From NCBI GenBank assembly GCA_026770025.1, contig JAMXDE010000019.1, positions 1,320,206-1,384,205 on the forward strand: a stretch of 64,000 bases of DNA, written 5' to 3'. The notes under the pieces were generated by a model. It was not told the origin of the DNA. It made no database searches and was given only the letters and a program-made list of their open reading frames with translations. The DNA is from Craspedostauros australis (Eukaryota; Bacillariophyta; Bacillariophyceae; Mastogloiales; Achnanthaceae). A program made the translations under genes and the position numbers. Positions 17,042-64,000 of this stretch are shown one piece after another. The stretch's first letter is position 1; the number at the start of each line of letters is the position of its first letter.

Positions 17042-17473
17042 GGTGGCGCCCAGTTAATGCTGAGACTTGGATATGAAACTTGGGACTGATGGCAAATCTG
17101 ATGATGGCCTTGAGAGCTGTCGCGAGAATATCACGAGAATATCACGAAGGACCAAGACGCAGTTGCTATGGCCACCGTCGCACCTCTGCCGAACTCCACC
17201 GCAGCGCACTCCAAATGCTCCTGCAGCGGCGTGGGCGCTTTTTGTGAGCAACGCCGCACCTCACGTTCGACGAAACGATCTCCTCGAGGCAGAGCAGAAT
17301 CCTGGTTCGATGCTGCAAAGTGGATGGGATACGATCTGCTCTCTCTGTCTGTTGGGATCAATGGAGAGCAGTTCGGCACGTTTCGACGTTCACAATCTCC
17401 TGCGTTACGTTGCCTTGCGAGGTGCCGTTGCGGATGCGCTCCAGCTGCTTTCGTTGTCCTCGTTGGTGTTGTG

Positions 17474-29700: not shown

Positions 29701-30927
29701 AACTTGTCTCCATCCTCCCCATCACCACCGCCACCATAGCCACCACCATCACCACCACCGCCACCATAGTCACCACCACCATAGTCACCGCTGCCACCGG
29801 AAGCACCATTGGATGTGACGTTGGCATCCGCGCTTGGTGGCGAGCCCGCAGGCATGTCGTTACCGAATGAGAACAGTCCACGGGCACGGGACCTGACACC
29901 AAAGCTGCCACTGCCTGCGTTCAACAAGCTTTCGGGCAGCGGATCATCTAGCCACCCTGCGTTCTCTTGAGAATAGGTTTCCCACTTCGGTCGGTTTTCT
30001 GCGGTGACGAGAGGTAGCAGTCCAAGGTAGGTGGAGCCGGACAGCTCGAGCAGATTGCTGCCCCTGTGAGCGTAGTCTGGGATTGTCACGAACGGCCATG
30101 TTGCGTTGGTGGCCTGTGCGAAGGACGTGATGACCACGCTCATTGATTCAATCGTTGCGAAGATGTTTTGTGCGGTGATGACGGAACTGTCGAGGACTTC
30201 GTTGCCGTAGGCGTTGAACTGATACGCCAATGTGCATCCGTCGCAAGGAACGGCAAGGATTGTAGAGCATGGCGGGGAAGCGGGTGGTCGCAACCATTGA
30301 TGTAACATCAACAAGATTGGCAAAGCAAGGCAAAGACAGGCAACAAGATAGGGCGGAGTAACACGATGTCGTAAAGATAGTGAGATCAAGGAGAGCCAGC
30401 AGAGCATTGGCACCATCATAATAATATCATATAATCGTTCGCACGAGAACAATTCTGTATGGCACGAAGTGGGGGCTTGGCCACACCATGAAGGAGCGAC
30501 ATACCTCAAAGTTAAATTCATCGTCCTCCTTGTTTGAGAAGATGGTGAATGTGAAGTATCCCATCAGACCTGCTGCTAACCCCAGCACGGCCAGCATCAA
30601 GGCCTTCGAGTATCGGATCTGGCTGCTTTCTCTGTGCGCCAACCGCCGTCGATGGTTGCCAGCATCTCCCCCACGAGTGCCTTGCTGCTTTGGCTTCACC
30701 AGATTGATGGTCGAAGCAGAATCGCGGCCGCCGTACGTGGATCCGCCGTTCGAGCCTGTGTCCTCCGCGAAGCTGGACAACGACCTGGTGTCCGCTTCAT
30801 TCCCGTTCTGATTGATGCCTTCGGTGCTGCTGCTGCTGCTGCTGTTGCTCACAACACTAGTGGTGTTGGTGTTGGTGTTATTGATCGCCATTGCATCACA
30901 ATGATGGTTCTCCTGGTTGCTGTTCAT
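26727..30927 (-). CDS. Membrane class III nucleotide cyclase fused to cyclic-nucleotide phosphodiesterase
   Basis: Two exons, 30927-30505 and 30218-26727, joined across a 286-bp phase-0 intron (donor GTATGT, acceptor CGTATCAG), give about 1,304 residues. Start ATG 30927 is chosen; the frame stays open upstream, so an earlier ATG at 31131 is possible. Order: polar N-terminus; TM about 109-130; extracellular-type sensor region about 140-525 with a Gly/Asp insertion at about 274-313; TM about 527-550; class III cyclase catalytic domain about 640-825 with metal-binding aspartates in MFADIAGFTAW and ETIGDCYV; then a 3',5'-cyclic nucleotide phosphodiesterase domain with SFHGFEHASH near 982 and HDVDHTG near 1048. 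It can therefore both make and break cyclic nucleotide. Substrate (cAMP or cGMP) cannot be decided from the sequence. The architecture is common in diatoms. Confidence 0.92.
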
Positions 30928-45850: not shown

Positions 45851-48800
45851 TTACTGGCCATCGCACTTTCCGCAGTAATCCGAAGAGTACAAACGAAGGA
45901 TGTCGGAGTCTGCCTCTGGCACGCAGAAAGTTTGGTATCCCTTCGTGACAGAGTAATGGCAGACGTACACCATGTTGGGCGAGTCGCCCTCACACGGGAA
46001 GTCTTCGGCAGCGCAGTATGGATCTTCATCACCTTCAGCCGGCAAATCTGTTTCCAAGGAGGTCTTCTTGAACGATTCCATGAGAATGCTTGAGCTCAGG
46101 CCTGGCGCGTAAGACTCTTCCTTCACTTCCTTCATGTGGCTGCGGATCTTCTGCATTCGGCGGTTGCTGTCGCACATCATGTCCGCGTTACATGGGATGA
46201 CAAACGAGTATCCGCAAGTATGGTCAGGATCGGTGGGTTGGTCGCATTCGTCCGGGATCTCCGCGCTGCTGTCCTTGGGGAAGGTACTGTCATGCACGAA
46301 GATCTCGACCTGTGCAAGCCCGTTGCTGTTGCACTGAGCTGTGTATGTGTCCAAATATCCGGCGGCTGGTTCGAGTCTCGTTGTGCAACCCATGGAATTT
46401 TCTCCCTGGGCCTTGTACCGGATCGACATCTGGCTCAGCGCAGCTGGGACGACACCCAAGGCATGAGTCTGTGCTATGTCCCACGTGTGAGACACAGAGA
46501 ACTTGACTGTGCTGCCGTGCTGCGATACGATTGACACAGGGCTCGCATCATACACACACGTTCCAGAAGAGTCATCCAGAACCACATCGTCGTAGCAGTT
46601 CGATGCCTCTGTCTCTGATGTCGGGGTTGGTGGTGCGCATTCAGAGTTGCATGGCATCTCGAAGTAGAACAGTGCGACGCCATCGTCGATGTCCGTTGGC
46701 TGTTTACATGCTTCACATGTCGTTGGATCGAAATCATCGCCGGTGTACAGATAGATACCAACGGACGCGAAACCGTCGAAGCAGACAGCGGTATGTTCAT
46801 ACGTTGTTCCAAAGTCAACGGTTGTGTCCGGGAAGCACTTCTCCGCAGATGCGGTTTCGCGATATTGGAACGCCAACATCTTCACGTCCACATCTTTCCA
46901 CAATTGTGTGACCTTGAACTTGACAGTGGCGCCATCATGCTCCACAATGGTCACTGCACCCTCCGGAATAGCCATGTCGTCTCCAGCCTTTCTGACCGGA
47001 GCGACGTTGACGCGATCGTAGCAATTGGTTGGTGCTGATGTTGGCGCGATAGTGTCATAACAGTCGGTCTCGCACGGCAACTCGAACACGTACGCAACAG
47101 AGTCGTCACTGTCTTCATCAGGTGTCTCACAGTATTCGCACTGCTCCGGATCCTCCAAGGGTTCTCCAAAGTAGATGTAGACTGTCACCATTGTCCAACC
47201 ATCGAAGCACACCGCTTCCAAGTCGAACGCCGCCTCAGGGGCGACATCGAACTCGGTCTTGCACTCAGAATGGGTCACGTTAGGTCTGTACTCGATGGAC
47301 ACGGCAGTGATGTTGGAGTCGGTGTCTTCGCCGATGGCTGGGTTCACAGCGAACGACACATGGGTGCCGTTCAGACCGGTGATGACAATGAGGTCGCTGT
47401 CCAATGGCAGAGGGACGTCAGCACCGTATGTTCCCGTTGGTTTTGGTGTGACCTGGTCGATGCACTCGGAAGGTGCTGGGCTGGTTGTCGGAGAACTTGT
47501 TGGGCTTTGGCTCGGGGAATCCGAAAGATCACATCCAGACTCACATGGGACTTCAAAGACCCAGACCACCTTGTCTGTGTCGTCTTCGTCCGGTGACCTG
47601 CATGCGTCGCAATCCTCGGCGTCCTCAGTGGCATTACCCAACACAAGGAAGACTCGCACTTCCGCGTAGGAGTCGAAGCAGGTGGCGATGAAGGACACAG
47701 TTGTTCCAAACGTCACTCCCGAGCTCTTCTCACAGGATTCGGCTGTCGAGTTTCTGTATTGCACAGCAAGCATCGAGGCTCCGTCTTCCGAGTTCTCAAT
47801 AACTTGTCGAACTTCAATGCCCACGTGCGTTCCATTTTGGCTGGTGATGACGATGAGATCGTCGTTCTCTGGAATATTCACGTCTGCGCCGGATTGGTGC
47901 GTAAGTTTTGGCAAGAGTTGTTCGTAGCAGTCGGTTGGCGCAGGGCTTGCAGTTGGACCACTGGTAGGTCCCGACGTTGGCATCGATGTTGGCGCGATAG
48001 TGTCATAACAGTCGGTCTCGCACGGCAACTCGAACACGTACGCAACAGAGTCGTCACTGTCTTCATCAGGTGTCTCACAGTATTCGCACTGCTCCGGATC
48101 CTCCAAGGGTTCTCCAAAGTAGATGTAGACTGTCACCATTGTCCAACTATCGAAGCACACCGCTTCCAAGTCGAACGCCGCCTCAGGGACGACATCGAAC
48201 TCGGTCTTGCACTCAGAATGGGTCACGTTAGGTCTGTACTCGATGGACACGGCAGTGATGTTGGAGTCGGTGTCTTCGCCGATGGCTGGGTTCACAGCGA
48301 ACGACACATGGGTGCCGTTCAGACCGGTGATGACAATGAGGTCGCTGTCCAATGGCAGAGGGACGTCAGCGCCGTATGTTCCCGTTGGTTTTGGTGTGAC
48401 CTGGTCGATGCACTCGGAAGGTGCTGGGCTGGTTGTTGGTCCGGAAGTAGGTCCGCTGGTTGGTCCAGAAGTAGGTCCAGAGGTTGGTCCTGAGGTTGGT
48501 CCAGATGTCGGTCCCGACGTTGGCCCCGAAGTTGGTCCACTTGTTGGTCCGGAGGTAGGTCCGCTAGTTGGTCCGCTGGTTGGTCCGGATGTTGGTCCAG
48601 AGGTGGGTCCAGATGTTGGTCCGGAGGTTGGTCCGGATGTTGGTCCGCTGGTTGGTCCACTAGTTGGTCCGGATGTTGGTCCACTGGTTGGTCCGGAGGT
48701 TGGTCCGCTGGTTGGTCCAGATGTTGGTCCGGAGGTTGGTCCGGATGTTGGTCCGGAGGTTGGTCCGGATGTTGGTCCGGATGTTGGTCCGGATGTTGGT

Positions 48801-51800
48801 CCACTGGTTGGTCCGGAGGTTGGTCCACTGGTTGGTCCGGAGGTTGGTCCGGAGGTTGGTCCGGAGGTTGGTCCGGAGGTTGGTCCGGAGGTTGGTCCGG
48901 AGGTTGGTCCGGAGGTTGGTCCGGAGGTTGGTCCGCTGGTTGGTCCGCTGGTTGGTCCGCTGGTTGGTCCACTAGTTGGTCCGGATGTTGGTCCACTAGT
49001 TGGTCCGGATGTTGGTCCACTGGTTGGTCCGGATGTTGGTCCACTGGTTGGTCCGGAGGTTGGTCCACTGGTTGGTCCACTGGTTGGTCCACTGGTTGGT
49101 CCACTGGTTGGTCCACTGGTTGGTCCGGAGGTTGGTCCGGAGGTTGGTCCGGAGGTTGGTCCGGAGGTTGGTCCACTGGTTGGTCCACTGGTTGGTCCAC
49201 TGGTTGGTCCACTGGTTGGTCCGGAGGTTGGTCCGGAGGTTGGTCCGCTGGTTGGTCCGCTGGTTGGTCCGCTGGTTGGTCCACTAGTTGGTCCGGATGT
49301 TGGTCCACTAGTTGGTCCGGATGTTGGTCCGGAGGTTGGTCCGGAGGTTGGTCCGCTGGTTGGTCCAGAGGTTGGTCCGCTAGTTGGTCCGGATGTTGGT
49401 CCGGAGGTTGGTCCGGATGTTGGTCCGGATGTTGGTCCACTGGTTGGTCCGGATGTTGGTCCACTGGTTGGTCCGGAGGTTGGTCCACTGGTTGGTCCAC
49501 TGGTTGGTCCGGAGGTTGGTCCGCTGGTTGGTCCAGAGGTTGGTCCGCTAGTTGGTCCGGATGTTGGTCCGGAGGTTGGTCCGGATGTTGGTCCGGATGT
49601 TGGTCCACTGGTTGGTCCGGAGGTTGGTCCACTGGTTGGTCCGGAGGTTGGTCCGGAGGTTGGTCCGGAGGTTGGTCCACTGGTTGGTCCACTGGTTGGT
49701 CCACTGGTTGGTCCGCTGGTTGGTCCAGATGTTGGGCCGGAGGTTGGTCCGGAGGTTGGCCCGGAGGTTGGTCCAGATGTTGGTCCGCTAGTTGGTCCAG
49801 AAGTTGGGCCGGATGTTGGTCCGCTGGTTGGTCCGGATGTTGGTCCACTGGTTGGTCCAGATGTTGGTCCGGAGGTTGGTCCACTAGTTGGTCCAGATGT
49901 TGGTCCGGAGGTTGGTCCGCTGGTTGGTCCACTAGTTGGTCCAGAGGTTGGTCCGCTAGTTGGTCCGGATGTTGGTCCGCTGGTTGGTCCGCTGGTTGGT
50001 CCACTAGTTGGTCCGGAAGTTGGTCCAGATGTTGGTCCACTGGTTGGTCCACTGGTTGGTCCGGATGTTGGTCCGCTGGTTGGTCCAGATGTTGGTCCGC
50101 TGGTTGGTCCAGATGTTGGTCCGCTGGTTGGTCCGGATGTTGGTCCGCTGGTTGGTCCACTAGTTGGTCCAGATGTTGGTCCGGAGGTTGGTCCGCTGGT
50201 TGGTCCGGATGTTGGTCCGCTGGTTGGTCCGGATGTTGGTCCAGAGGTGGGTCCGCTGGTTGGTCCAGATGTAGGCCCCGAAGTTGGTCCGCTAGTTGGT
50301 CCGCTTGTAGGTCCGCTAGTTGGTCCAGAGGTGGGTCCAGAAGTTGGTCCGCTTGTAGGTCCAGAAGTTGGGCCGGAGGTTGGTCCGCTAGTTGGTCCAC
50401 TAGTTGGTCCAGAAGTAGGTCCGCTGGTTGGTCCAGATGTTGGTCCACTGGTTGGTCCGGATGTTGGTCCGCTCGTAGGTCCGGATGTTGGTCCAGATGT
50501 TGGTCCGCTTGTAGGTCCAGAAGTTGGGCCGGAGGTTGGTCCAGAAGTAGGTCCAGAAGTTGGTCCAGAGGTTGGCCCGCTGGTTGGTGAGGCTGACAAA
50601 TCACAGTTTGCTGTGCATGGCACCTCGAAGACATATGCGACTGAGTCGTCACTGTCCTCATCAGGAGTTTCGCAGAAATCGCACTGCTCCGGATCCTCCA
50701 AAGGCTCGCCAAAATAGATGTAGACTGTCACCATAGTCCAACCATCGAAGCACACCGCTTCCAAGTCGAACGCCGCCTCAGGGGCGACATCGAACTCGGT
50801 CTTGCACTCAGAGTAGGTAACATTCGCTCTGTATTGGATTGACACAGTCGTGATGTTGGAGTCGGTATCTTCGCCGATGGATGGATTGACTTCGAAAGAC
50901 ACGTGCGTTCCGTTCTGACTAGTGACAACGATCAAATCGTTGTCTTCAGGAAGGGAAACGCTTGCACCTTCCTGGCGAACGAACTTGGCGCGGAGTTGGT
51001 CGTAGCAATCGGTTGGAGCAGCACTGGTGGTTGGCTCGCCTGTCGGCGCTGGGCTTGTCGTTGGCTGTGACGTCGGTTCCAGTGTTGCTGACGGGCTGTT
51101 GTCTCCTTGCGGGGGTGGCGTATTTGGGTCACGGCATACTCCAATAGATGCGATGGCACCCGGAGCTGTGAACGTCACGATGACTTGATTCATCATTGAA
51201 ACGTCAATCTCAACCTTTGTAAATCCACCTGGGTTGGCGCTGGCTGTCGTGGTCTGTGCGAGTCCACCCTCGGATGGATCGGCCGTAGTTCTCGCTGTGA
51301 TTGTCACATCCGCGGCAAGATCGTAGAAAGTAAGTTCAATTGTTTCGGTTGATTGCCCGTTGAAGGTGAACACAATATCACCACCAGTCGGGCTCGGAAC
51401 AGCGTCGTTCATATTGCTCTCTTGGATGATGATAGCTGTGCCTGCCTCTGAGTCACCAGTGACCCAGTATCTTGCGTTCTTCCCAGTGGGCCCGCCGTAC
51501 GACGAAGGACTATCGCCAAGATCAACGGTGATCGAGTCAATGTCGAATATATCGTATATCTCAGAGGGAACATAGCCATTGCCAGTTGGCTGGTTGTCGC
51601 CGTCAGCGGCGAAGTCAAGAACTGTGTAGATGCAAATGGTCTCAGTTGGGCCGCTGGTTGGACCACTGGTAGGTCCCGACGTTGGCATCGATGTTGGCGC
51701 GATAGTGTCATAACAGTCGGTCTCGCACGGCAACTCGAACACGTACGCAACAGAGTCGTCACTGTCTTCATCAGGTGTCTCACAGTATTCGCACTGCTCC

Positions 51801-54800
51801 GGATCCTCCAAGGGTTCTCCAAAGTAGATGTAGACTGTCACCATTGTCCAACCATCGAAGCACACCGCTTCCAAGTCGAACGCCGCCTCAGGGACGACAT
51901 CGAACTCGGTCTTGCACTCAGAATGGGTCACGTTAGGTCTGTACTCGATGGACACGGCAGTGATGTTGGAGTCGGTGTCTTCGCCGATGGCTGGGTTCAC
52001 AGCGAACGACACATGGGTGCCGTTCAGACCGGTGATGACAATGAGGTCGCTGTCCAATGGCAGAGGGACGTCAGCACCGTATGTTCCCGTTGGTTTTGGT
52101 GTGACCTGGTCGATGCACTCGGAAGGTGCTGGGCTGGTTGTTGGTCCGGAAGTAGGTCCGCTGGTTGGTCCAGAAGTAGGTCCAGAGGTTGGTCCTGAGG
52201 TTGGTCCAGATGTCGGTCCCGACGTTGGCCCCGAAGTTGGTCCACTTGTTGGTCCGGAGGTAGGTCCGCTAGTTGGTCCGCTGGTTGGTCCGGATGTTGG
52301 TCCAGAGGTGGGTCCAGATGTTGGTCCGGAGGTTGGTCCGGATGTTGGTCCGCTGGTTGGTCCACTAGTTGGTCCGGATGTTGGTCCACTGGTTGGTCCG
52401 GAGGTTGGTCCGCTGGTTGGTCCAGAGGTTGGTCCGCTAGTTGGTCCAGATGTTGGTCCGGAGGTTGGTCCGGATGTTGGTCCGGATGTTGGTCCGGATG
52501 TTGGTCCACTGGTTGGTCCGGATGTTGGTCCGGATGTTGGTCCGCTGGTTGGTCCAGAGGTTGGTCCGCTAGTTGGTCCAGATGTTGGTCCGGAGGTTGG
52601 TCCGGATGTTGGTCCGGATGTTGGTCCACTGGTTGGTCCACTGGTTGGTCCGGAGGTTGGTCCGGAGGTTGGTCCACTGGTTGGTCCACTGGTTGGTCCA
52701 CTGGTTGGTCCGGAGGTTGGTCCGGAGGTTGGTCCACTGGTTGGTCCGGAGGTTGGTCCGGAGGTTGGTCCGGAGGTTGGTCCGCTGGTTGGTCCACTAG
52801 TTGGTCCGGATGTTGGTCCACTAGTTGGTCCGGATGTTGGTCCACTGGTTGGTCCGGAGGTTGGTCCGCTGGTTGGTCCAGAGGTTGGTCCACTAGTTGG
52901 TCCGGATGTTGGTCCACTGGTTGGTCCGGAGGTTGGTCCGCTGGTTGGTCCAGAGGTTGGTCCGGAGGTTGGTCCAGATGTTGGTCCGGAGGTTGGTCCG
53001 GATGTTGGTCCAGAGGTTGGTCCGCTAGTTGGTCCGCTAGTTGGTGCAGATGTTGGGCCGGAGGTTGGTCCAGATGTTGGTCCGCTGGTTGGTCCACTAG
53101 TTGGTCCAGATGTTGGTCCGGAGGTTGGTCCGCTGGTTGGTCCGGAGGTTGGTCCGGAGGTTGGTCCAGATGTTGGTCCGCTAGTTGGTCCAGAAGTTGG
53201 GCCGCTGGTTGGTCCACTGGTTGGTCCACTGGTTGGTCCAGATGTTGGTCCAGATGTTGGTCCGGATGTTGGTCCACTAGTTGGTCCGGAGGTTGGTCCG
53301 GATGTTGGTCCGGAGGTTGGTCCAGAGGTTGGTCCGGATGTTGGGCCGGAGGTAGGTCCAGAAGTTGGGCCGCTGGTTGGTCCACTGGTTGGTCCAGATG
53401 TTGGGCCGGAGGTTGGTCCAGATGTTGGTCCGCTGGTTGGTCCACTAGTTGGTCCAGATGTTGGTCCGGATGTTGGTCCGCTGGTTGGTCCGGAGGTTGG
53501 TCCAGATGTTGGTCCAGATGTTGGTCCGCTGGTTGGTCCGGATGTTGGGCCGGAGGTTGGTCCAGAGGTTGGTCCGGAGGTAGGTCCAGAAGTTGGTCCG
53601 GATGTTGGGCCGGAGGTAGGTCCAGAAGTTGGTCCGCTGGTTGGTCCGCTGGTTGGTCCGCTAGTTGGTCCACTGGTTGGTCCGGATGTTGGTCCGGAGG
53701 TGGGTCCAGAAGTTGGTCCGCTGGTTGGTCCGCTGGTTGGTCCAGATGTTGGGCCGGAGGTTGGTCCGGAGGTTGGTCCGGATGTTGGTCCAGATGTTGG
53801 GCCGGATGTTGGTCCGGATGTTGGTCCACTAGTTGGTCCAGATGTTGGGCCGGATGTTGGTCCGGATGTTGGTCCGGATGTTGGTCCGGATGTTGGTCCA
53901 CTAGTTGGTCCACTAGTTGGTCCAGAGGTTGGGCCTGAAGTAGGTCCAGAGGTTGGTCCGCTGGTTGGTCCGCTGGTTGGTCCGCTGGTTGGTCCGCTGG
54001 TTGGTCCGCTGGTTGGTCCGCTGGTTGGTCCGCTGGTTGGTCCACTGGTTGGTCCACTGGTTGGTCCACTGGTTGGTCCGCTGGTTGGTCCAGAAGTTGG
54101 TCCAGATGTTGGTCCGCTGGTTGGTCCGGATGTTGGTCCAGAGGTTGGTCCAGAGGTTGGTCCGGATGTTGGGCCGGAGGTAGGTCCAGAAGTTGGGCCG
54201 CTGGTTGGTCCACTGGTTGGTCCACTGGTTGGTCCACTGGTTGGTCCACTGGTTGGTCCGGAGGTTGGTCCGGAGGTTGGTCCACTGGTTGGTCCGGAGG
54301 TTGGTCCGGAGGTTGGTCCGGAGGTTGGTCCGGAGGTTGGTCCGGAGGTTGGTCCAGATGTTGGGCCGGAGGTAGGTCCAGAAGTTGGTCCACTGGTTGG
54401 TCCAGATGTTGGGCCGGAGGTGGGTCCAGAAGTTGGTCCGCTGGTTGGTCCGCTGGTTGGTCCACTGGTTGGTCCGGAGGTTGGTCCACTGGTTGGTCCA
54501 GAAGTTGGTCCAGATGTTGGTCCAGATGTTGGTCCGGAGGTAGGTCCAGAAGTTGGTCCGCTGGTTGGTCCGCTAGTTGGTCCGCTAGTTGGTCCAGATG
54601 TTGGTCCGCTGGTTGGTCCGCTGGTTGGTCCGCTGGTTGGTCCGCTGGTTGGTCCGCTAGTTGGTCCAGAAGTTGGGCCGGAGGTTGGTCCAGAGGTTGG
54701 TCCAGAAGTTGGTCCGCTGGTTGGTCCGCTAGTTGGTCCGCTAGTTGGTCCAGATGTTGGTCCGCTGGTTGGTCCGCTGGTTGGTCCGCTGGTTGGTCCG

Positions 54801-57800: not shown

Positions 57801-60800
57801 GTTGGTCCAGAGGTTGGGCCTCCAGTTGGTCCGCTGGTTGGACCGGATGTTGGTCCAGAAGTTGGGCCGGATGTTGGTCCGCTGGTTGGTCCGCTAGTTG
57901 GTCCAGAGGTTGGGCCTCCAGTTGGTCCGCTGGTTGGACCGGATGTTGGTCCAGAAGTTGGGCCGGATGTTGGTCCGCTGGTTGGTCCAGAAGTAGGTCC
58001 AGAGGTTGGGCCTCCAGTTGGTCCGCTAGTTGGCCCAGAAGTTGGTCCGCTGGTTGGTCCAGAAGTCGGTCCAGAAGTTGGGCCGGATGTTGGTCCGCTT
58101 GTTGGTCCGCTGGTTGGTCCAGAGGTTGGTCCGCTGGTTGGACCAGAAGTAGGTCCAGAGGTTGGTCCGGATGTTGGTCCAGAAGTAGGTCCAGAGGTTG
58201 GTCCGCTGGTTGGTCCAGAAGTTGGGCCTCCGGTTGGTGCGTCGGTTGGGACAGACGTTGGAGATCCTTCGCAAGAGTACTGGCATGGAACCACGTACTT
58301 GTACACGATCACTGGAGTGCTGGATGGTCCGCTCTCGAATGGAACGCCGCATCCGCTTGTGCCCAGGGCGCTCTCGCCACCTGCCGCTCCGATCAAGGAA
58401 CCGGATGGATCCTCCTGAGTGTTGGCGCTGTCGGCGACGACAACGTACACAATCGCAACAGTGGTTCCGGCGAAATCATCATCCTCGACACACTGTGCCA
58501 CGTACTCCTCGGCTGGGCCGGTGGCCTCAGTCACGGATGTCTCCGTGCAGAAGTCGTTCTCGGTCACTTCGTTGCCGTCGTTGTCGGTGCTGATTCTGTC
58601 GAACACGACAGCCACAGATCCGAGCTCGCCGTCCTCGCCTACAGCACCGCCGGTGCGAAGGGCCTCGATGGCATCAAGGAGTGGCTCAAGGGAGATCTTC
58701 ACGCTGTCGACTTCACGCTCGCTCACCTCGAATGGAATACCATCGTCGCCGGTGATCTCGTCATCAAGGCCTTCATCGTACTTGGTGTTGCCACCGTCCT
58801 TGTCGACGAGGCGGGCCTCAGTGCTACAGACGTAGGTTGGCTGGCTGGTTGGTCCAGAGGTTGGGCCAGAGGTTGGTCCAGAAGTAGGTCCGCTGGTTGG
58901 TCCGCTAGTTGGTCCAGAAGTTGGGCCGGATGTTGGTCCAGATGTTGGTCCAGAAGTAGGTCCGCTGGTTGGTCCAGATGTTGGGCCGGATGTTGGTCCG
59001 CTAGTTGGTCCAGAAGTTGGGCCGGATGTTGGTCCAGATGTTGGTCCAGAAGTAGGTCCGCTGGTTGGTCCAGATGTTGGGCCGGATGTTGGTCCGCTAG
59101 TTGGTCCAGAAGTTGGGCCGGATGTTGGTCCAGATGTTGGTCCAGAAGTAGGTCCGCTGGTTGGTCCGGAAGTTGGTCCGGATGTTGGTCCGCTGGTTGG
59201 TCCGCTAGTTGGTCCAGAGGTTGGGCCTCCAGTTGGTCCGCTGGTTGGACCGGATGTTGGTCCAGAAGTTGGGCCGGATGTTGGTCCGCTGGTTGGTCCA
59301 GAAGTAGGTCCAGAGGTTGGGCCTCCAGTTGGTCCGCTGGTTGGACCGGATGTTGGTCCAGAAGTTGGGCCGGATGTTGGTCCGCTGGTTGGTCCAGAAG
59401 TAGGTCCAGAGGTTGGGCCTCCAGTTGGTCCGCTAGTTGGCCCAGAAGTTGGTCCGCTGGTTGGTCCAGAAGTCGGTCCAGAAGTTGGGCCGGATGTTGG
59501 TCCGCTTGTTGGTCCGCTGGTTGGTCCAGAGGTTGGTCCGCTGGTTGGACCAGAAGTAGGTCCAGAGGTTGGTCCGGATGTTGGGCCAGAAGTTGGTCCA
59601 GAGGTTGGTCCGCTGGTTGGTCCAGAAGTTGGGCCTCCGGTTGGTGCGTCGGTTGGGACAGACGTTGGAGATCCTTCGCAAGAGTACTGGCATGGAACCA
59701 CGTACTTGTACACGATCACTGGAGTGCTGGATGGTCCGCTCTCGAATGGAACGCCGCATCCGCTTGTGCCCAGGGCGCTCTCGCCACCTGCCGCTCCGAT
59801 CAAGGAACCGGATGGATCCTCCTGAGTGTTGGCGCTGTCGGCGACGACAACGTACACAATCGCAACAGTGGTTCCGGCGAAATCATCATCCTCGACACAC
59901 TGTGCCACGTACTCCTCGGCTGGGCCGGTGGCCTCAGTCACGGATGTCTCCGTGCAGAAGTCGTTCTCGGTCACTTCGTTGCCGTCGTTGTCGGTGCTGA
60001 TTCTGTCGAACACGACAGCCACAGATCCGAGCTCGCCGTCCTCGCCTACAGCACCGCCGGTGCGAAGGGCCTCGATGGCATCAAGGAGTGGCTCAAGGGA
60101 GATCTTCACGCTGTCGACTTCACGCTCGCTCACCTCGAATGGAATACCATCGTCGCCGGTGATCTCGTCATCAAGGCCTTCATCGTACTTGGTGTTGCCA
60201 CCGTCCTTGTCGACGAGGCGGGCCTCAGTGCTACAGACGTAGGTTGGCTGGCTGGTTGGTCCAGAGGTTGGGCCAGAGGTTGGTCCAGAAGTAGGTCCGC
60301 TGGTTGGTCCGCTAGTTGGTCCAGAAGTTGGGCCGGATGTTGGTCCAGATGTTGGTCCAGAAGTAGGTCCGCTGGTTGGTCCAGATGTTGGGCCGGATGT
60401 TGGTCCGCTAGTTGGTCCAGAAGTTGGGCCGGATGTTGGTCCAGATGTTGGTCCAGAAGTAGGTCCGCTGGTTGGTCCAGATGTTGGGCCGGATGTTGGT
60501 CCGCTAGTTGGTCCAGAAGTTGGGCCGGATGTTGGTCCAGATGTTGGTCCAGAAGTAGGTCCGCTGGTTGGTCCGGAAGTTGGTCCGGATGTTGGTCCGC
60601 TGGTTGGTCCGCTAGTTGGTCCAGAGGTTGGGCCTCCAGTTGGTCCGCTGGTTGGACCGGATGTTGGTCCAGAAGTTGGGCCGGATGTTGGTCCGCTGGT
60701 TGGTCCAGAAGTAGGTCCAGAGGTTGGGCCTCCAGTTGGTCCGCTGGTTGGACCGGATGTTGGTCCAGAAGTTGGGCCGGATGTTGGTCCGCTGGTTGGT

Positions 60801-63800
60801 CCAGAAGTAGGTCCAGAGGTTGGGCCTCCAGTTGGTCCGCTAGTTGGCCCAGAAGTTGGTCCGCTGGTTGGTCCAGAAGTCGGTCCAGAAGTTGGGCCGG
60901 ATGTTGGTCCGCTTGTTGGTCCGCTGGTTGGTCCAGAGGTTGGTCCGCTGGTTGGACCAGAAGTAGGTCCAGAGGTTGGTCCGGATGTTGGGCCAGAAGT
61001 TGGTCCAGAGGTTGGTCCGCTGGTTGGTCCAGAAGTTGGGCCTCCGGTTGGTGCGTCGGTTGGGACAGACGTTGGAGATCCTTCGCAAGAGTACTGGCAT
61101 GGAACCACGTACTTGTACACGATCACTGGAGTGCTGGATGGTCCGCTCTCGAATGGAACGCCGCATCCGCTTGTGCCCAGGGCGCTCTCGCCACCTGCCG
61201 CTCCGATCAAGGAACCGGATGGATCCTCCTGAGTGTTGGCGCTGTCGGCGACGACAACGTACACAATCGCAACAGTGGTTCCGGCGAAATCATCATCCTC
61301 GACACACTGTGCCACGTACTCCTCGGCTGGGCCGGTGGCCTCAGTCACGGATGTCTCCGTGCAGAAGTCGTTCTCGGTCACTTCGTTGCCGTCGTTGTCG
61401 GTGCTGATTCTGTCGAACACGACAGCCACAGATCCGAGCTCGCCGTCCTCGCCTACAGCACCGCCGGTGCGAAGGGCCTCGATGGCATCAAGGAGTGGCT
61501 CAAGGGAGATCTTCACGCTGTCGACTTCACGCTCGCTCACCTCGAATGGAATACCATCGTCGCCGGTGATCTCGTCATCAAGGCCTTCATCGTACTTGGT
61601 GTTGCCACCGTCCTTGTCGACGAGGCGGGCCTCAGTGCTACAGACGTAGGTTGGCTGGCTGGTTGGTCCAGAGGTTGGGCCAGAGGTTGGTCCAGAAGTA
61701 GGTCCGCTGGTTGGTCCGGAAGTTGGTCCGGATGTTGGTCCGCTGGTTGGTCCGCTAGTTGGTCCAGAGGTTGGGCCTCCAGTTGGTCCGCTGGTTGGAC
61801 CGGATGTTGGTCCAGAAGTTGGGCCGGATGTTGGTCCGCTGGTTGGTCCAGAAGTAGGTCCAGAGGTTGGGCCTCCAGTTGGTCCGCTGGTTGGACCGGA
61901 TGTTGGTCCAGAAGTTGGGCCGGATGTTGGTCCGCTGGTTGGTCCAGAAGTAGGTCCAGAGGTTGGGCCTCCAGTTGGTCCGCTAGTTGGCCCAGAAGTT
62001 GGTCCGCTGGTTGGTCCAGAAGTCGGTCCAGAAGTTGGGCCGGATGTTGGTCCGCTTGTTGGTCCGCTGGTTGGTCCAGAGGTTGGTCCGCTGGTTGGAC
62101 CAGAAGTAGGTCCAGAGGTTGGTCCGGATGTTGGGCCAGAAGTTGGTCCAGAGGTTGGTCCGCTGGTTGGTCCAGAAGTTGGGCCTCCGGTTGGTGCGTC
62201 GGTTGGGACAGACGTTGGAGATCCTTCGCAAGAGTACTGGCATGGAACCACGTACTTGTACACGATCACTGGAGTGCTGAATGGTCCGCTCTCGAATGGA
62301 ACGCCGCATCCGCTTGTGCCCAGGGCGCTCTCGCCACCTGCCGCTCCGATCAAGGAACCGGATGGATCCTCCTGAGTGTTGGCGCTGTCGGCGACGACAA
62401 CGTACACAATCGCAACAGTGGTTCCGGCGAAATCATCATCCTCGACACATTGTGCCACGTACTCCTCGGCTGGGCCGGTGGCCTCAGTCACGGATGTCTC
62501 CGTGCAGAAGTCGTTCTCGGTCACTTCGTTGCCGTCGTTGTCGGTGCTGATTCTGTCGAACACGACAGCCACAGATCCGAGCTCGCCGTCCTCGCCTACA
62601 GCACCGCCGGTGCGAAGGGCCTCGATGGCATCAAGGAGTGGCTCAAGGGAGATCTTCACGCTGTCGACTTCACGCTCGCTCACCTCGAATGGAATACCAT
62701 CGTCGCCGGTGATCTCGTCATCAAGGCCTTCATCGTACTTGGTGTTGCCACCGTCCTTGTCGACGAGGCGGGCCTCAGTGCTACAGACGTAGGTTGGCTG
62801 GCTGGTTGGTCCAGAGGTTGGGCCAGAGGTTGGTCCAGAAGTAGGTCCGCTGGTTGGTCCGCTAGTTGGTCCAGAAGTTGGGCCGGATGTTGGTCCAGAT
62901 GTTGGTCCAGAAGTAGGTCCGCTGGTTGGTCCAGATGTTGGGCCGGATGTTGGTCCGCTAGTTGGTCCAGAAGTTGGGCCGGATGTTGGTCCAGATGTTG
63001 GTCCAGAAGTAGGTCCGCTGGTTGGTCCGGAAGTTGGTCCGGATGTTGGTCCGCTGGTTGGTCCGCTAGTTGGTCCAGAGGTTGGGCCTCCAGTTGGTCC
63101 GCTGGTTGGACCGGATGTTGGTCCAGAAGTTGGGCCGGATGTTGGTCCGCTGGTTGGTCCAGAAGTAGGTCCAGAGGTTGGGCCTCCAGTTGGTCCGCTG
63201 GTTGGACCGGATGTTGGTCCAGAAGTTGGGCCGGATGTTGGTCCGCTGGTTGGTCCAGAAGTAGGTCCAGAGGTTGGGCCTCCAGTTGGTCCGCTAGTTG
63301 GCCCAGAAGTTGGTCCGCTGGTTGGTCCAGAAGTCGGTCCAGAAGTTGGGCCGGATGTTGGTCCGCTTGTTGGTCCGCTGGTTGGTCCAGAGGTTGGTCC
63401 GCTGGTTGGACCAGAAGTAGGTCCAGAGGTTGGTCCGGATGTTGGGCCAGAAGTTGGTCCAGAGGTTGGTCCGCTGGTTGGTCCAGAAGTTGGGCCTCCG
63501 GTTGGTGCGTCGGTTGGGACAGACGTTGGAGATCCTTCGCAAGAGTACTGGCATGGAACCACGTACTTGTACACGATCACTGGAGTGCTGGATGGTCCGC
63601 TCTCGAATGGAACGCCGCATCCGCTTGTGCCCAGGGCGCTCTCGCCACCTGCCGCTCCGATCAAGGAACCGGATGGATCCTCCTGAGTGTTGGCGCTGTC
63701 GGCGACGACAACGTACACAATCGCAACAGTGGTTCCGGCGAAATCATCATCCTCGACACACTGTGCCACGTACTCCTCGGCTGGGCCGGTGGCCTCAGTC

Positions 63801-64000
63801 ACGGATGTCTCCGTGCAGAAGTCGTTCTCGGTCACTTCGTTGCCGTCGTTGTCGGTGCTGATTCTGTCGAACACGACAGCCACAGATCCGAGCTCGCCGT
63901 CCTCGCCTACAGCACCGCCGGTGCGAAGGGCCTCGATGGCATCAAGGAGTGGCTCAAGGGAGATCTTCACGCTGTCGACTTCACGCTCGCTCACCTCGAA
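45851..64000 (-). CDS. Giant secreted-type PTSG-repeat protein with cysteine-rich modules, N-terminus off the window
   Basis: One uninterrupted frame of 6,049 residues runs from the right edge to TAA at 45851; no start is seen because the protein begins beyond 64000. From the N-terminal side: four intervals of PTSG repeat separated by five copies of module A; a longer PTSG block; module B; module C; a 3.6-kb PTSG block; module C; module B; module C; a 2.2-kb PTSG block; five more C modules; and a Cys-containing tail of about 100 residues ending GKCDGQ. Module C (about 140 residues) has seven spaced cysteines and NxS/T sequons; module A is a longer relative with six. Roughly 840 PTSG units make up more than half of the visible protein. 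Ser/Thr/Pro repeats with cysteine modules suggest an O-glycosylated or phosphorylated extracellular wall, mucilage or adhesion protein. This role is inference; signal peptide and anchor lie outside or are absent. Confidence 0.92.
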   Translation of the reverse strand, partial: FEVSEREVDSVKISLEPLLDAIEALRTGGAVGEDGELGSVAVVFDRISTDNDGNEVTENDFCTETSVTEATGPAEEYVAQCVEDDDFAGTTVAIVYVVVADSANTQEDPSGSLIGAAGGESALGTSGCGVPFESGPSSTPVIVYKYVVPCQYSCEGSPTSVPTDAPTGGPTSGPTSGPTSGPTSGPTSGPTSGPTSGPTSGPTSGPTSGPTSGPTSGPTSGPTSGPTSGPTSGPTSGPTGGPTSGPTSGPTSGPTSGPTSGPTSGPTSGPTGGPTSGPTSGPTSGPTSGPTSGPTSGPTSGPTGGPTSGPTSGPTSGPTSGPTSGPTSGPTSGPTSGPTSGPTSGPTSGPTSGPTSGPTSGPTSGPTSGPTSGPTSGPTSGPTSGPTSGPTSGPTSGPTSQPTYVCSTEARLVDKDGGNTKYDEGLDDEITGDDGIPFEVSEREVDSVKISLEPLLDAIEALRTGGAVGEDGELGSVAVVFDRISTDNDGNEVTENDFCTETSVTEATGPAEEYVAQCVEDDDFAGTTVAIVYVVVADSANTQEDPSGSLIGAAGGESALGTSGCGVPFESGPFSTPVIVYKYVVPCQYSCEGSPTSVPTDAPTGGPTSGPTSGPTSGPTSGPTSGPTSGPTSGPTSGPTSGPTSGPTSGPTSGPTSGPTSGPTSGPTSGPTSGPTGGPTSGPTSGPTSGPTSGPTSGPTSGPTSGPTGGPTSGPTSGPTSGPTSGPTSGPTSGPTSGPTGGPTSGPTSGPTSGPTSGPTSGPTSGPTSGPTSGPTSGPTSQPTYVCSTEARLVDKDGGNTKYDEGLDDEITGDDGIPFEVSEREVDSVKISLEPLLDAIEALRTGGAVGEDGELGSVAVVFDRISTDNDGNEVTENDFCTETSVTEATGPAEEYVAQCVEDDDFAGTTVAIVYVVVADSANTQEDPSGSLIGAAGGESALGTSGCGVPFESGPSSTPVIVYKYVVPCQYSCEGSPTSVPTDAPTGGPTSGPTSGPTSGPTSGPTSGPTSGPTSGPTSGPTSGPTSGPTSGPTSGPTSGPTSGPTSGPTSGPTSGPTGGPTSGPTSGPTSGPTSGPTSGPTSGPTSGPTGGPTSGPTSGPTSGPTSGPTSGPTSGPTSGPTGGPTSGPTSGPTSGPTSGPTSGPTSGPTSGPTSGPTSGPTSGPTSGPTSGPTSGPTSGPTSGPTSGPTSGPTSGPTSGPTSGPTSGPTSGPTSGPTSGPTSGPTSGPTSGPTSGPTSGPTSGPTSGPTSQPTYVCSTEARLVDKDGGNTKYDEGLDDEITGDDGIPFEVSEREVDSVKISLEPLLDAIEALRTGGAVGEDGELGSVAVVFDRISTDNDGNEVTENDFCTETSVTEATGPAEEYVAQCVEDDDFAGTTVAIVYVVVADSANTQEDPSGSLIGAAGGESALGTSGCGVPFESGPSSTPVIVYKYVVPCQYSCEGSPTSVPTDAPTGGPTSGPTSGPTSGPTSGPTSGPTSGPTSGPTSGPTSGPTSGPTSGPTSGPTSGPTSGPTSGPTSGPTSGPTGGPTSGPTSGPTSGPTSGPTSGPTSGPTSGPTGGPTSGPTSGPTSGPTSGPTSGPTSGPTSGPTGGPTSGPTSGPTSGPTSGPTSGPTSGPTSGPTSGPTSGPTSGPTSGPTSGPTSGPTSGPTSGPTSGPTSGPTSGPTSGPTSGPTSGPTSGPTSGPTSGPTSGPTSGPTSGPTSGPTSGPTSGPTSGPTSQPTYVCSTEARLVDKDGGNTKYDEGLDDEITGDDGIPFEVSEREVDSVKISLEPLLDAIEALRTGGAVGEDGELGSVAVVFDRISTDNDGNEVTENDFCTETSVTEATGPAEEYVAQCVEDDDFAGTTVAIVYVVVADSANTQEDPSGSLIGAAGGESALGTSGCGVPFESGPSSTPVIVYKYVVPCQYSCEGSPTSVPTDAPTGGPTSGPTSGPTSGPTSGPTSGPTSGPTSGPTSGPTSGPTSGPTSGPTSGPTSGPTSGPTSGPTSGPTSGPTGGPTSGPTSGPTSGPTSGPTSGPTSGPTSGPTGGPTSGPTSGPTSGPTSGPTSGPTSGPTSGPTGGPTSGPTSGPTSGPTSGPTSGPTSGPTSGPTSGPTSGPTSGPTSGPTSGPTSGPTSGPTSGPTSGPTSGPTSGPTSGPTSGPTSGPTSGPTSGPTGGPTSGPTSGPTSGPTSGPTSGPTSGPTSGPTSGPTSGPTSGPTSGPTSGPTSGPTSGPTSGPTSGPTSGPTSGPTSGPTSGPTSGPTSGPTSGPTSDPTSGPTSGPTSGPTSGPTSGPTSGPTSGPTGGPTSGPTSGPTSGPTSGPTSGPTSGPTSGPTSGPTSGPTSGPTSGPTSGPTSGPTSGPTSGPTSGPTSGPTSGPTSGPTSGPTSGPTSGPTSGPTSGPTSGPTSGPTSGPTSGPTSGPTSGPTSGPTSGPTLAPTSNVPSSAPSRNCEYVVADFDGDDVKTNAYLFPTALIESGISIEAFGSNGTGHTPSDMARVMETPTEGNAIFIQESNVRDIIPNAEGGVLSFTFQATVEEVIGLQLWDVSEGGIVTVLTEGGTIESFPIMASPNATQTIDIGVFEALEMNVTFGGTLSVTAIEICFDGSTTPGPVRFAPPSETKSPTAMPTTSPAPTGEPTESSAPTDCYDQLRAKLVDQVGTDSTPVPEDEELIVVTSQNGTHVGFEVNQVWGSGANISLIAVNHHVNFTYTECSRQYDVTPDSSSLYLAKCFDEWADVTVYIYTADDFSEEECDICETPEEDDEDIMVFHFEIPCNSECDLSASPTGGPTSGPTSGPTSGPTSVPTSEPTSGPTSGPTSGPTSGPTSGPTSGPTSGPTSGPTSGPTSGPTSGPTSGPTSGPTSGPTSGPTSGPTSGPTSGPTSGPTSGPTSGPTSGPTSGPTSGPTSGPTSGPTSGPTSGPTSGPTSGPTSGPTSGPTSGPTSGPTSGPTSGPTSGPTSGPTSGPTSGPTSGPTSGPTSGPTSGPTSGPTSGPTSGPTSGPTSGPTSGPTSGPTSGPTSGPTSGPTSGPTSGPTSGPTSGPTSGPTSGPTSGPTSGPTSGPTSGPTSGPTSGPTSGPTSGPTSGPTSGPTSGPTSGPTSGPTSGPTSGPTSGPTSGPTSGPTSGPTSGPTSGPTSGPTSGPTSGPTSGPTSGPTSGPTSGPTSGPTSGPTSGPTSGPTSGPTSGPTSGPTSGPTSGPTSGPTSGPTSGPTSGPTSGPTSGPTSGPTSGPTSGPTSGPTSGPTSGPTSGPTSGPTSGPTSGPTSGPTSGPTSGPTSGPTSGPTSGPTSGPTSGPTSGPTSGPTSGPTSGPTSGPTSGPTSGPTSGPTSGPTSGPTSGPTSGPTSGPTSGPTSGPTSGPTSGPTSGPTSGPTSGPTSGPTSGPTSGPTSGPTSGPTSGPTSGPTSGPTSGPTSGPTSGPTSGPTSGPTSGPTSGPTSGPTSGPTSGPTSGPTSGPTSGPTSGPTSGPTSGPTSGPTSGPTSGPTSGPTSGPTSGPTSGPTSGPTSGPTSGPTSGPTSGPTSGPTSGPTSGPTSGPTSGPTSGPTSGPTSGPTSGPTSGPTSGPTSGPTSGPTSGPTSGPTSGPTSGPTSGPTSGPTSGPTSGPTSGPTSGPTSGPTSGPTSGPTSGPTSGPTSGPTSGPTSGPTSGPTSGPTSGPTSGPTSGPTSGPTSGPTSAPTSGPTSGPTSGPTSGPTSGPTSGPTSGPTSGPTSGPTSGPTSGPTSGPTSGPTSGPTSGPTSGPTSGPTSGPTSGPTSGPTSGPTSGPTSGPTSGPTSGPTSGPTSGPTSGPTSGPTSGPTSGPTSGPTSGPTSGPTSGPTSGPTSGPTSGPTSGPTSGPTSGPTSGPTSGPTSGPTSGPTSGPTSGPTSGPTSGPTSGPTSGPTSGPTSGPTSGPTSGPTSGPTSGPTSGPTSGPTSGPTSGPTSGPTSGPTSGPTSGPTSGPTSGPTSGPTSGPTSGPTSGPTSGPTSGPTSGPTSGPTTSPAPSECIDQVTPKPTGTYGADVPLPLDSDLIVITGLNGTHVSFAVNPAIGEDTDSNITAVSIEYRPNVTHSECKTEFDVVPEAAFDLEAVCFDGWTMVTVYIYFGEPLEDPEQCEYCETPDEDSDDSVAYVFELPCETDCYDTIAPTSMPTSGPTSGPTSGPTETICIYTVLDFAADGDNQPTGNGYVPSEIYDIFDIDSITVDLGDSPSSYGGPTGKNARYWVTGDSEAGTAIIIQESNMNDAVPSPTGGDIVFTFNGQSTETIELTFYDLAADVTITARTTADPSEGGLAQTTTASANPGGFTKVEIDVSMMNQVIVTFTAPGAIASIGVCRDPNTPPPQGDNSPSATLEPTSQPTTSPAPTGEPTTSAAPTDCYDQLRAKFVRQEGASVSLPEDNDLIVVTSQNGTHVSFEVNPSIGEDTDSNITTVSIQYRANVTYSECKTEFDVAPEAAFDLEAVCFDGWTMVTVYIYFGEPLEDPEQCDFCETPDEDSDDSVAYVFEVPCTANCDLSASPTSGPTSGPTSGPTSGPTSGPTSGPTSGPTSGPTSGPTSGPTSGPTSGPTSGPTSGPTSGPTSGPTSGPTSGPTSGPTSGPTSGPTSGPTSGPTSGPTSGPTSGPTSGPTSGPTSGPTSGPTSGPTSGPTSGPTSGPTSGPTSGPTSGPTSGPTSGPTSGPTSGPTSGPTSGPTSGPTSGPTSGPTSGPTSGPTSGPTSGPTSGPTSGPTSGPTSGPTSGPTSGPTSGPTSGPTSGPTSGPTSGPTSGPTSGPTSGPTSGPTSGPTSGPTSGPTSGPTSGPTSGPTSGPTSGPTSGPTSGPTSGPTSGPTSGPTSGPTSGPTSGPTSGPTSGPTSGPTSGPTSGPTSGPTSGPTSGPTSGPTSGPTSGPTSGPTSGPTSGPTSGPTSGPTSGPTSGPTSGPTSGPTSGPTSGPTSGPTSGPTSGPTSGPTSGPTSGPTSGPTSGPTSGPTSGPTSGPTSGPTSGPTSGPTSGPTSGPTSGPTSGPTSGPTSGPTSGPTSGPTSGPTSGPTSGPTSGPTSGPTSGPTSGPTSGPTSGPTSGPTSGPTSGPTSGPTSGPTSGPTSGPTSGPTSGPTSGPTSGPTSGPTSGPTSGPTSGPTSGPTSGPTSGPTSGPTSGPTSGPTSGPTSGPTSGPTSGPTSGPTSGPTSGPTSGPTSGPTSGPTSGPTSGPTSGPTSGPTSGPTSGPTSGPTSGPTSGPTSGPTSGPTSGPTSGPTSGPTTSPAPSECIDQVTPKPTGTYGADVPLPLDSDLIVITGLNGTHVSFAVNPAIGEDTDSNITAVSIEYRPNVTHSECKTEFDVVPEAAFDLEAVCFDSWTMVTVYIYFGEPLEDPEQCEYCETPDEDSDDSVAYVFELPCETDCYDTIAPTSMPTSGPTSGPTASPAPTDCYEQLLPKLTHQSGADVNIPENDDLIVITSQNGTHVGIEVRQVIENSEDGASMLAVQYRNSTAESCEKSSGVTFGTTVSFIATCFDSYAEVRVFLVLGNATEDAEDCDACRSPDEDDTDKVVWVFEVPCESGCDLSDSPSQSPTSSPTTSPAPSECIDQVTPKPTGTYGADVPLPLDSDLIVITGLNGTHVSFAVNPAIGEDTDSNITAVSIEYRPNVTHSECKTEFDVAPEAAFDLEAVCFDGWTMVTVYIYFGEPLEDPEQCEYCETPDEDSDDSVAYVFELPCETDCYDTIAPTSAPTNCYDRVNVAPVRKAGDDMAIPEGAVTIVEHDGATVKFKVTQLWKDVDVKMLAFQYRETASAEKCFPDTTVDFGTTYEHTAVCFDGFASVGIYLYTGDDFDPTTCEACKQPTDIDDGVALFYFEMPCNSECAPPTPTSETEASNCYDDVVLDDSSGTCVYDASPVSIVSQHGSTVKFSVSHTWDIAQTHALGVVPAALSQMSIRYKAQGENSMGCTTRLEPAAGYLDTYTAQCNSNGLAQVEIFVHDSTFPKDSSAEIPDECDQPTDPDHTCGYSFVIPCNADMMCDSNRRMQKIRSHMKEVKEESYAPGLSSSILMESFKKTSLETDLPAEGDEDPYCAAEDFPCEGDSPNMVYVCHYSVTKGYQTFCVPEADSDILRLYSSDYCGKCDGQ
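45854..46590 (-). other. C-terminal tail and last module C of the giant protein
   Basis: The tail (about 45854-46160) has charged helix-forming sequence (MQKIRSHMKEVKEE) then a Cys cluster. The preceding module (about 46160-46590, beginning CYDDVV) keeps the cysteine order of module C but is the most divergent copy. No GPI or membrane anchor is seen at the C-terminus. Confidence 0.7.
46600..48425 (-). repeat. Four consecutive module C copies
   Basis: Copies lie at about 46600-47030, 47050-47470, 47520-47930 and 47985-48425. The second and fourth are nearly identical at DNA level (both begin CIDQVTPKP), differing at only a few bases such as one Gly-to-Ser change near 48148. Each carries the order C, EC, VCF, QC-x2-C, PC, C, with NGTHV and similar sequons. 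Confidence 0.8.
48426..50590 (-). repeat. PTSG block, about 180 units of 12 bp
   Basis: Continuous 12-bp units, on the plus strand GGTTGGTCCxxx, code Pro-Thr-Ser-Gly. The third and fourth codons vary synonymously: Ser appears as both TCN and AGY and Thr as ACC, ACA or ACT. Confidence 0.95.
50591..52130 (-). other. Module C - module B - module C cassette
   Basis: Module C at about 50591-51025 (CYDQLRAKF), a Pro/Thr linker, module B at about 51125-51640 (CIYTVLDFAAD), then module C at about 51690-52130. Module B has a run AIIIQESNMNDAV, a GGDIVFTF strand and ends SIGVCRD, consistent with a beta-sandwich. Confidence 0.75.
52131..55700 (-). repeat. PTSG block, about 297 units of 12 bp
   Basis: The longest array in the window. 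One unit is PTSA (near 53043) and the N-terminal edge has PTSVPTSEPT (near 55630-55650); nearly all the rest are exactly PTSG in translation. Confidence 0.95.
55701..56740 (-). other. Module B - module C cassette, second copy
   Basis: Module C at about 55706-56135 (CYDQLRAKLV) and module B at about 56230-56715 (CEYVVADFDGDD, with AIFIQESNVRDI and GGVLSFTF). It repeats the B-then-C order of the 50591-51640 cassette, but is more divergent, so it is an older duplication. Confidence 0.75.
56741..58261 (-). repeat. PTSG block with homogeneous and mixed parts
   Basis: About 125 units. The segment 56775-56965 is very uniform: some sixteen units of the same codon version (plus strand CCACTTGTAGGT). 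The rest mixes versions. PTGG units and one PTSD unit (near 57240) occur. Confidence 0.9.
58262..58834 (-). repeat. Module A, copy 1 from the C-terminal side
   Basis: About 190 residues from VCSTEAR to QYSCEG, containing six cysteines and the strand pair TTVAIVYVVV and VIVYKYVVPC. It aligns in cysteine order with module C but has an added N-terminal acidic/helical part. Confidence 0.9.
58835..59668 (-). repeat. PTSG/PTGG block with 96-bp higher-order repeats
   Basis: Eight-unit (96-bp) higher-order repeats can be read directly: the CCGCTAGTT version starts at 58902, 58998 and 59094, and the CCTCCAGTT version (PTGG) at 59226 and 59322. Confidence 0.9.
59669..60241 (-). repeat. Module A, copy 2
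   Basis: Practically identical in DNA to copy 1, offset by 1,407 bp. Confidence 0.9.
60242..61075 (-). repeat. PTSG/PTGG block between module A copies 2 and 3
   Basis: Same length and order as the block at 58835-59668, so the whole 1,407-bp unit was duplicated. Confidence 0.9.
61076..61648 (-). repeat. Module A, copy 3
   Basis: Practically identical to copies 1 and 2, offset by 1,407 bp from copy 2. Confidence 0.9.
61649..62218 (-). repeat. Shortened PTSG/PTGG block
   Basis: 264 bp (22 units of 12 bp) shorter than the neighbouring block, keeping the reading frame; the part carrying the CCGCTAGTT higher-order repeats is missing. Confidence 0.9.
62219..62791 (-). repeat. Module A, copy 4, with private changes
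   Basis: Differs from the other copies by A at 62280 (Ser to Phe in ESGPxSTP) and T at 62450 (synonymous). Confidence 0.9.
62792..63529 (-). repeat. PTSG/PTGG block between module A copies 4 and 5
   Basis: Exactly 96 bp shorter than the 1,407-bp register, that is one higher-order repeat fewer. Confidence 0.9.
63530..64000 (-). repeat. Module A, copy 5, cut by the window edge
   Basis: Identical to copies 1-3 over the visible part; the first codons visible at 64000 encode FEVSEREV, inside the module, so the array continues beyond the window. Confidence 0.9.

Follow-up and report, generated by a model that had tools for sequence, protein, structure and literature searches.

Gliding in raphid diatoms depends on secreted strands that the cells pull on, and the molecules of these strands have only begun to be named. 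At the end of contig C17 (JAMXDE010000019.1) of Craspedostauros australis, a giant repetitive frame raises the question of what kind of protein is encoded there, and whether it could belong to such strands. The window analysed here is the whole stretch of 64,000 nucleotides that forms this contig end. Its minus-strand frame at 45851..64000 is stop-free over 6,049 residues, which are the C-terminal residues of a giant protein; the contig ends at window base 64000, and the 5′ part of the gene lies off it. This bears out the first-pass annotation, made from the letters of the window, which had described a single frame of at least 6,049 residues.

Architecture of the giant frame

The long Pro/Thr/Ser-rich arrays that characterize mucin-like proteins are present in the window protein as 864 PTxx units, which are spread over nine runs and include 811 PTSG and 23 PTGG units (811 PTSG and 24 PTGG when the whole window protein is counted). 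The giant PTSG arrays of the first-pass annotation are real, with its figure of about 840 PTSG units corrected to 811. Stretched out, the window's PT arrays would by themselves reach a computed length of about 1.0-1.2 µm. The frame looks coding and under protein-level constraint, because the 811 PTSG units are encoded by 51 different 12-mers, both serine codon blocks are used in them (AGY 314, TCN 497), and change between copies is mostly synonymous, both between modules C2 and C3 (pS 0.58, pN 0.13) and between the terminal part of the C17 A array and the matching stretch of contig C39 (28 synonymous and 4 non-synonymous base differences). Long plus-strand frames lie opposite the stop-free repeat in the same region (e.g. 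57128-64000), and we take them for a shadow of the minus-strand repeat. The window protein has about 500 acidic versus 99 basic residues, with few lysines. Its N-x-S/T sequons number 21, of which the C modules hold 18 and B1 three. A hydropathy scan found no 19-residue segment with a mean above 1.33, and therefore no membrane anchor is seen in the window protein.

Between the arrays stand several kinds of module, all on the minus strand and given here from the contig end towards the C-terminus. A module search located five copies of module A, at 63530..64000 (157 aa, cut by the contig end), 62219..62785, 61076..61642, 59669..60235 and 58262..58828, the full-length copies being 189 aa each and almost the same in sequence. 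They are followed by a PTxx array of 127 units (56738..58261, residues 1914-2421), module B1 (56246..56713, module search) and module C1 (55724..56125). An array of 298 units, 293 of them PTSG (52133..55708, residues 2765-3956), leads to C2 (51713..52120), B2 (51128..51637, module search) and C3 (50603..51010), and a further array of 180 units, 179 of them PTSG (48428..50587, residues 4472-5191), leads to C4 (48008..48415), C5 (47531..47932), C6 (47060..47467), C7 (46637..47026) and a divergent C-type module, D (46166..46600). The C-type modules are all related to DUF7633 (see below). The C-terminal region E (45854..46165) opens with an N-RRM site and continues with an acidic stretch and then a Cys-rich tail. 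These modules and the 864 PTxx units support the giant modular PT-rich protein of the first-pass annotation, together with its tally of five A, two B and eight C modules, provided that D is taken as the eighth C beside C1 to C7; tail E was absent from its list. In a sequence search of the genome, tail E has 10 matches (the window and nine other places), and module B has seven, both window copies included.

Two other long reading frames lie on the minus strand of the window. At 7976-17053, IQ calmodulin-binding motifs (PF00612, 8.5e-39) follow one another in a long series within a 3,025-residue frame, and at 26727-30560 a guanylate/adenylate cyclase domain is followed in one frame by a cyclic nucleotide phosphodiesterase domain.

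Module C and the family DUF7633

The cysteine-rich modules had been put forward as an apparently undescribed family, a claim that does not hold for module C. Ten window modules, C2 and C6 not among them, were searched against Pfam and NCBIfam. The Pfam family DUF7633 (PF24636), which has a curated cut-off of 27 bits, matched C7 (5.6e-5, 23.7 bits) and D (0.0016, 19 bits) below that cut-off and gave no match to C1, C3, C4 or C5, such that every C-type module sent to Pfam stayed under the curated threshold. Searching the genome with the same Pfam profile yielded 28 matches at E <=1, 26 of them above the cut-off, the weakest being that of the window at 23 bits. A custom profile built from the 20 best DUF7633 loci of the same genome gave 40-62 bits with each of the eight C-type modules, whereas 320 shuffled and 16 reversed control sequences reached at most 9.5 bits, and hhalign aligned the C-type modules with DUF7633 at a probability of 99.4. 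By these profile comparisons, module C is a divergent branch of DUF7633. This places module C in a family that is catalogued rather than well described, because DUF7633 is an entry without known function.

The same relationship is apparent in the cysteine framework. Across 40 domains (the 20 loci, the eight window modules and 12 modules of a giant paralogue on contig C23), five cysteine columns are invariant (40 of 40) and a sixth holds Cys in 35 of the 40; the stretch extracted for the other five domains begins behind that column. The seventh cysteine appears as CC in all 20 loci, as CxxC in 19 modules from the two giants, and not at all in D. Module C therefore shares with DUF7633 a significant profile similarity and a cysteine framework in all eight copies (except for the seventh Cys in D), whereas C1-C7 of the window differ from the Pfam family by CxxC instead of CC and by scores below the cut-off. 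With an odd count of framework cysteines, one may be left for another partner, although some domains have an eighth Cys nearby.

A PDB sequence search with module C found no match. The predicted fold of B2 plus C3 has a mean pLDDT of 57, with an all-beta C part (ten-residue means 56-84), and Foldseek returned 23 PDB matches for this model at E <=0.001 (best 8.1e-5); among the 50 matches listed, TM-scores were <=0.21 and the proteins were unrelated beta proteins, and therefore no fold was drawn from Foldseek for C or B. Stray sub-threshold Pfam matches to B1, C7 and D (E 0.022 to 0.12) were discarded, as were two stray NCBIfam matches among the ten modules (E 0.14 and 0.17). Relatives of C in viral contigs amounted to 19 pattern matches, none confirmed, and the DUF7633 domain of locus L008 gave 38 pattern matches in a collection of genome contigs, again none confirmed. 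A single-protein query of this kind finds close relatives only, and prokaryotic members of DUF7633 may therefore exist. The Pfam profile itself had a weak match, below the cut-off, in one control genome.

Module A has six cysteines and had been proposed to be a longer version of C, which could not be established: it scores 6-10 bits against the 20-locus DUF7633 profile (best shuffled control 9.5), hhalign gives a probability of 14%, and its predicted fold, from an alignment of three near-identical rows, is not usable (mean pLDDT 37). Module B2 had two weak beta-trefoil matches by sequence in the PDB (E 0.088 and 0.44), which we set aside. B aligns by hhalign (probability 87.5, 107 columns) with the domain behind DUF7633 in loci L015, L020 and L024, three of the four frames in which DUF7633 stands close behind a signal-like start judged by eye (the fourth, L025, was left out). 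This resemblance is suggestive only, and B1, B2 and the L020 domain had no acceptable match in Pfam.

Elsewhere in the genome, DUF7633 occurs in several architectures. In L006, L008, L010, L012, L023 and L048 it is combined with PT-rich linkers and B; the N-terminal parts of these frames look von Willebrand A-like by eye, this appearance notwithstanding a search of L048 and L023 pieces against Pfam that found no match. Behind PT-rich linkers, it is found with subtilase in L011 (by Pfam) and L013 (by resemblance), and with an M36 peptidase (fungalysin) in L014. It is also combined with the choice-of-anchor A (CAA) domain, by which the Trailins are defined, in L016 (by Pfam) and in L018 and L019 (by position). 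The CAA profile (PF20597) has eight matches in seven frames of the genome, none of them on C17 or C39. Five of the seven frames also carry DUF7633 or C-type modules (on C23, C12, C31, C22 and C2), and in the CAA frames on C3 and C64 no DUF7633 was found.

In addition to these domains, a short basic motif recurs behind DUF7633. We surveyed 22 frames (19 loci, L048, the C23 frame and the window; L022, which is the C23 gene, was omitted), 12 of which end with DUF7633 and a tail of more than 20 residues. All 12 (L006, L008, L009, L010, L012, L016, L018, L019, L023, L048, C23 and the window) have R-[RK]-[LM] 3 to 23 residues behind the last DUF7633, with distances taken from the end of the Pfam match in nine loci, whereas in L048, C23 and the window the reference point was the last cysteine motif, to within 2 residues either way; several of these frames are closely related and hence not independent. 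The motif is absent from four frames with tails of <=10 residues, and six frames with more sequence behind DUF7633 have no site directly after it, L024 having an RRL near its C-terminus. R-[RK]-[LM] is otherwise rare in the two giants: the window protein has one further copy in 5,943 residues, and C23 none in 9,548. Diatom silica proteins have an RXL site near the N-terminus, RRL in silicanin-1, and its removal by proteolysis is documented for silaffins (PMC5525289). The tripeptide shared with silaffins and silicanin-1 is R-x-L or M, often RRL; in those proteins it lies near the N-terminus behind the signal peptide, whereas in C. australis it lies near the C-terminus behind the last DUF7633. 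R-[RK]-[LM] behind DUF7633 is a putative cleavage site.

The missing N-terminus and the giant paralogues

Module A occurs at 11 places in the genome, five in the window and six near the left end of contig C39, and nowhere off these two contigs. A C39 frame of 4,704 residues runs off its contig on the same strand as the window gene. In the 2,000 bases read at its start, a stop is followed by MMMVTKR...GLLLVLCALVLT and then a Ser/Pro-rich stretch with repeats; further into this N-terminal part lies one C-type module (12102-12479). A hydrophobic core, GLLLVLCALVL, stands behind basic residues at the start (mean hydropathy 3.2), which makes this a putative, signal-peptide-like beginning as judged by hydropathy. 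The last 2,339 window bases are 98.6% identical to C39:274-2612, which suggests that C17 and C39 adjoin within the A array, across a gap or collapse. Because C39 is the only other place with module A, the N-terminus of the window gene is very probably on C39.

It is highly improbable that C17 and C39 hold two genes with a common A array, the true N-terminus of the window gene being elsewhere. The two contigs are unbridged by any read or sequence and differ at 32 of the 2,339 aligned bases, as two genes might; the array copies vary among themselves, however, and 98.6% identity therefore fits different copies of one array. Moreover, all 11 module A places are on C17 or C39, the sole start is on C39 and the sole C-terminus on C17, and both frames are on the same strand and broken off within the array. 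The N-terminal stretch is also unique, with one full occurrence in the genome, its four other matches being its own Ser/Pro repeats further along C39. The check for a signal peptide asked for by the first-pass annotation thus finds a signal-like start by hydropathy, if C39 carries the start of the window gene. Joined, the two parts amount to about 10,700 residues and 1.016 MDa with the gap not counted, an estimate in which 2,293 unread C39 residues enter at 93 Da each, and from which about 780 residues would be lost if the aligned ends truly overlap. Should C17 and C39 be one gene, the whole protein would be about 1.02 MDa or more.

The window gene has giant relatives in the same genome. A frame at C23:344492-373915 looks complete, with 9,649 residues from the first likely methionine and a computed 893.7 kDa. 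Behind its signal-like start it carries small Cys-rich repeats, two CAA stretches, 12 C-type modules and 1,534 PTSG units, together with B, a final DUF7633 and tail E. Parts of a third giant may lie on two contigs, C12, which has an 8,027-residue frame with CAA, and C21, which has a 3,240-residue frame with B and tail E following in another frame. On C6:2999657-3014998 (minus strand), a frame of more than 5,100 residues (5,114 read) has Ser/Pro repeats of another kind, ends in a DUF7633 domain and reaches the contig end. As an observation on the assembly, contigs C17, C39, C12, C21 and C6 all end inside or beside giant repeat genes, and such genes are therefore probably truncated in catalogues made from it. 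Separately, the silicon transporter family PF03842 has 88 matches in the genome, 32 above 760 bits and several with in-frame stops, which reflects either a large expansion or many duplicated copies.

The trails of C. australis are described in a 2024 paper as containing CaTrailin4 (~900 kDa) and Ca5609 (>1 MDa), about 2 µm long, which may serve as force transducers and adhesives (PMC11420354). By mass and CAA, the C23 gene fits as a candidate for CaTrailin4. This likely Trailin counterpart shares C-type modules, PTSG arrays, B and E with the window gene, whereas C17 and C39 have no CAA match. For the window gene, we lean narrowly towards Ca5609, as a candidate by mass and lack of CAA only, because there are other very large frames (C12 together with C21, and C6) that might equally be Ca5609. 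The window protein and Ca5609 are both very large modular proteins of the same species, and the mass of >1 MDa would be reached, at 1.016 MDa, only if C17 and C39 are one gene, with part of this figure estimated and the gap left out of it. In the description to which we compare it, Ca5609 is not called a Trailin, and the window protein with C39 likewise lacks CAA. The window protein is of a kind already known, and may itself already be published. Within the open literature, outside which the key papers lie, our search found no DUF7633 assignment, no domain map from the C39 start and no R-[RK]-[LM] site behind DUF7633.

Proposed function in the extracellular material

Taken together, we consider it probable that the window gene encodes a giant secreted, mucin-like structural or adhesive strand protein of the raphe mucilage of C. 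australis. The signal-like start, PTxx arrays, acidic excess and C modules with DUF7633 argue for a secreted mucin-like strand protein, and an N-terminus on C39 as part of this reading is strongly indicated, although the N-terminal signal, found by hydropathy, counts only if the C39 join holds. An adhesive strand role is suggested by the DUF7633 or C-type modules in five of the seven CAA frames, the C23 paralogue and the known giant trail proteins. Against it stand the lack of a detectable CAA domain in the window protein and C39, and the unbridged C17|C39 join with its 32 differences in 2,339 overlapping bases. The wall, mucilage or adhesion type of extracellular protein proposed in the first-pass annotation survives as the best inference. 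We likewise infer O-glycosylation, cleavage, cross-linking, location and strand function for the window protein. An N-terminal signal peptide would direct the chain into the secretory pathway, and dense O-glycosylation of the PTSG arrays would make it a hydrated, extended thread, along which the DUF7633-related C modules, with A and B, would form folded beads. These beads could hold on to adjacent chains or to glycans of the matrix and might give way when loaded, and a protease may cut at R-[RK]-[LM] after the last bead, freeing the Cys-rich tail. In a bolder version, which we regard as quite unlikely, DUF7633 would be a general bead of diatom extracellular material, in adhesins, secreted proteases and PT-rich giants alike, and the thiol left over by its odd count of framework cysteines would bond chains. 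The proteins would be exported with the Cys-rich tail still attached, and its removal at the C-terminal R-[RK]-[LM] would trigger curing of the mucilage strand outside the cell.

PT-rich arrays make up most of the window protein, as expected if it were instead a cell-coat mucin of the frustule surface that hydrates the wall and lowers friction with no gluing or pulling. Such a role has been proposed for CaFAP1, which with other mucin-like diatom surface proteins is PT-rich, secreted and, in this case, of the same species; the likeness is one of published description (PMC11420354). Many folded cysteine-rich modules between the arrays, common to CAA-bearing paralogues, speak against this alternative, which is unlikely and not mutually exclusive with a strand role. 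It is very unlikely that the protein is a wall or biosilica component processed as silaffins and silicanin are, with no role in motility. The resemblance of R-[RK]-[LM] to RXL sites in diatom silica proteins (PMC5525289) would fit, but those sites are N-terminal, whereas the present one lies C-terminally, the composition is acidic with few lysines, and DUF7633 is also found on subtilase and M36 protease frames, which suggests extracellular material at large. Finally, a repeat or assembly artefact without a gene is hardly conceivable, for despite long near-identical repeats with a contig end within them there are 6,049 and 4,704 stop-free residues, an excess of synonymous change, both serine codon blocks and a complete C23 paralogue, even if exact copy numbers may still be wrong.

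The secreted strand protein that we favor also has a proposed adhesive role in common with the secreted GDPH and vWD proteins of diatoms (PMC7335047). The GDPH string is missing from all 6,049 residues of the window protein and from the C23 frame; of the C39 part, the sequence read covers 1-5423 and 12301-14300. The ten window modules had no vWD match in Pfam.

These results bring DUF7633 forward as an uncharacterised domain shared within one genome by CAA adhesins, secreted proteases and PT-rich giants, and R-[RK]-[LM] after DUF7633 as a processing hypothesis open to testing. For the gliding of raphid diatoms, the domain map of what is possibly one of the largest strand proteins offers targets for tagging experiments, for force spectroscopy and for work on antifouling.
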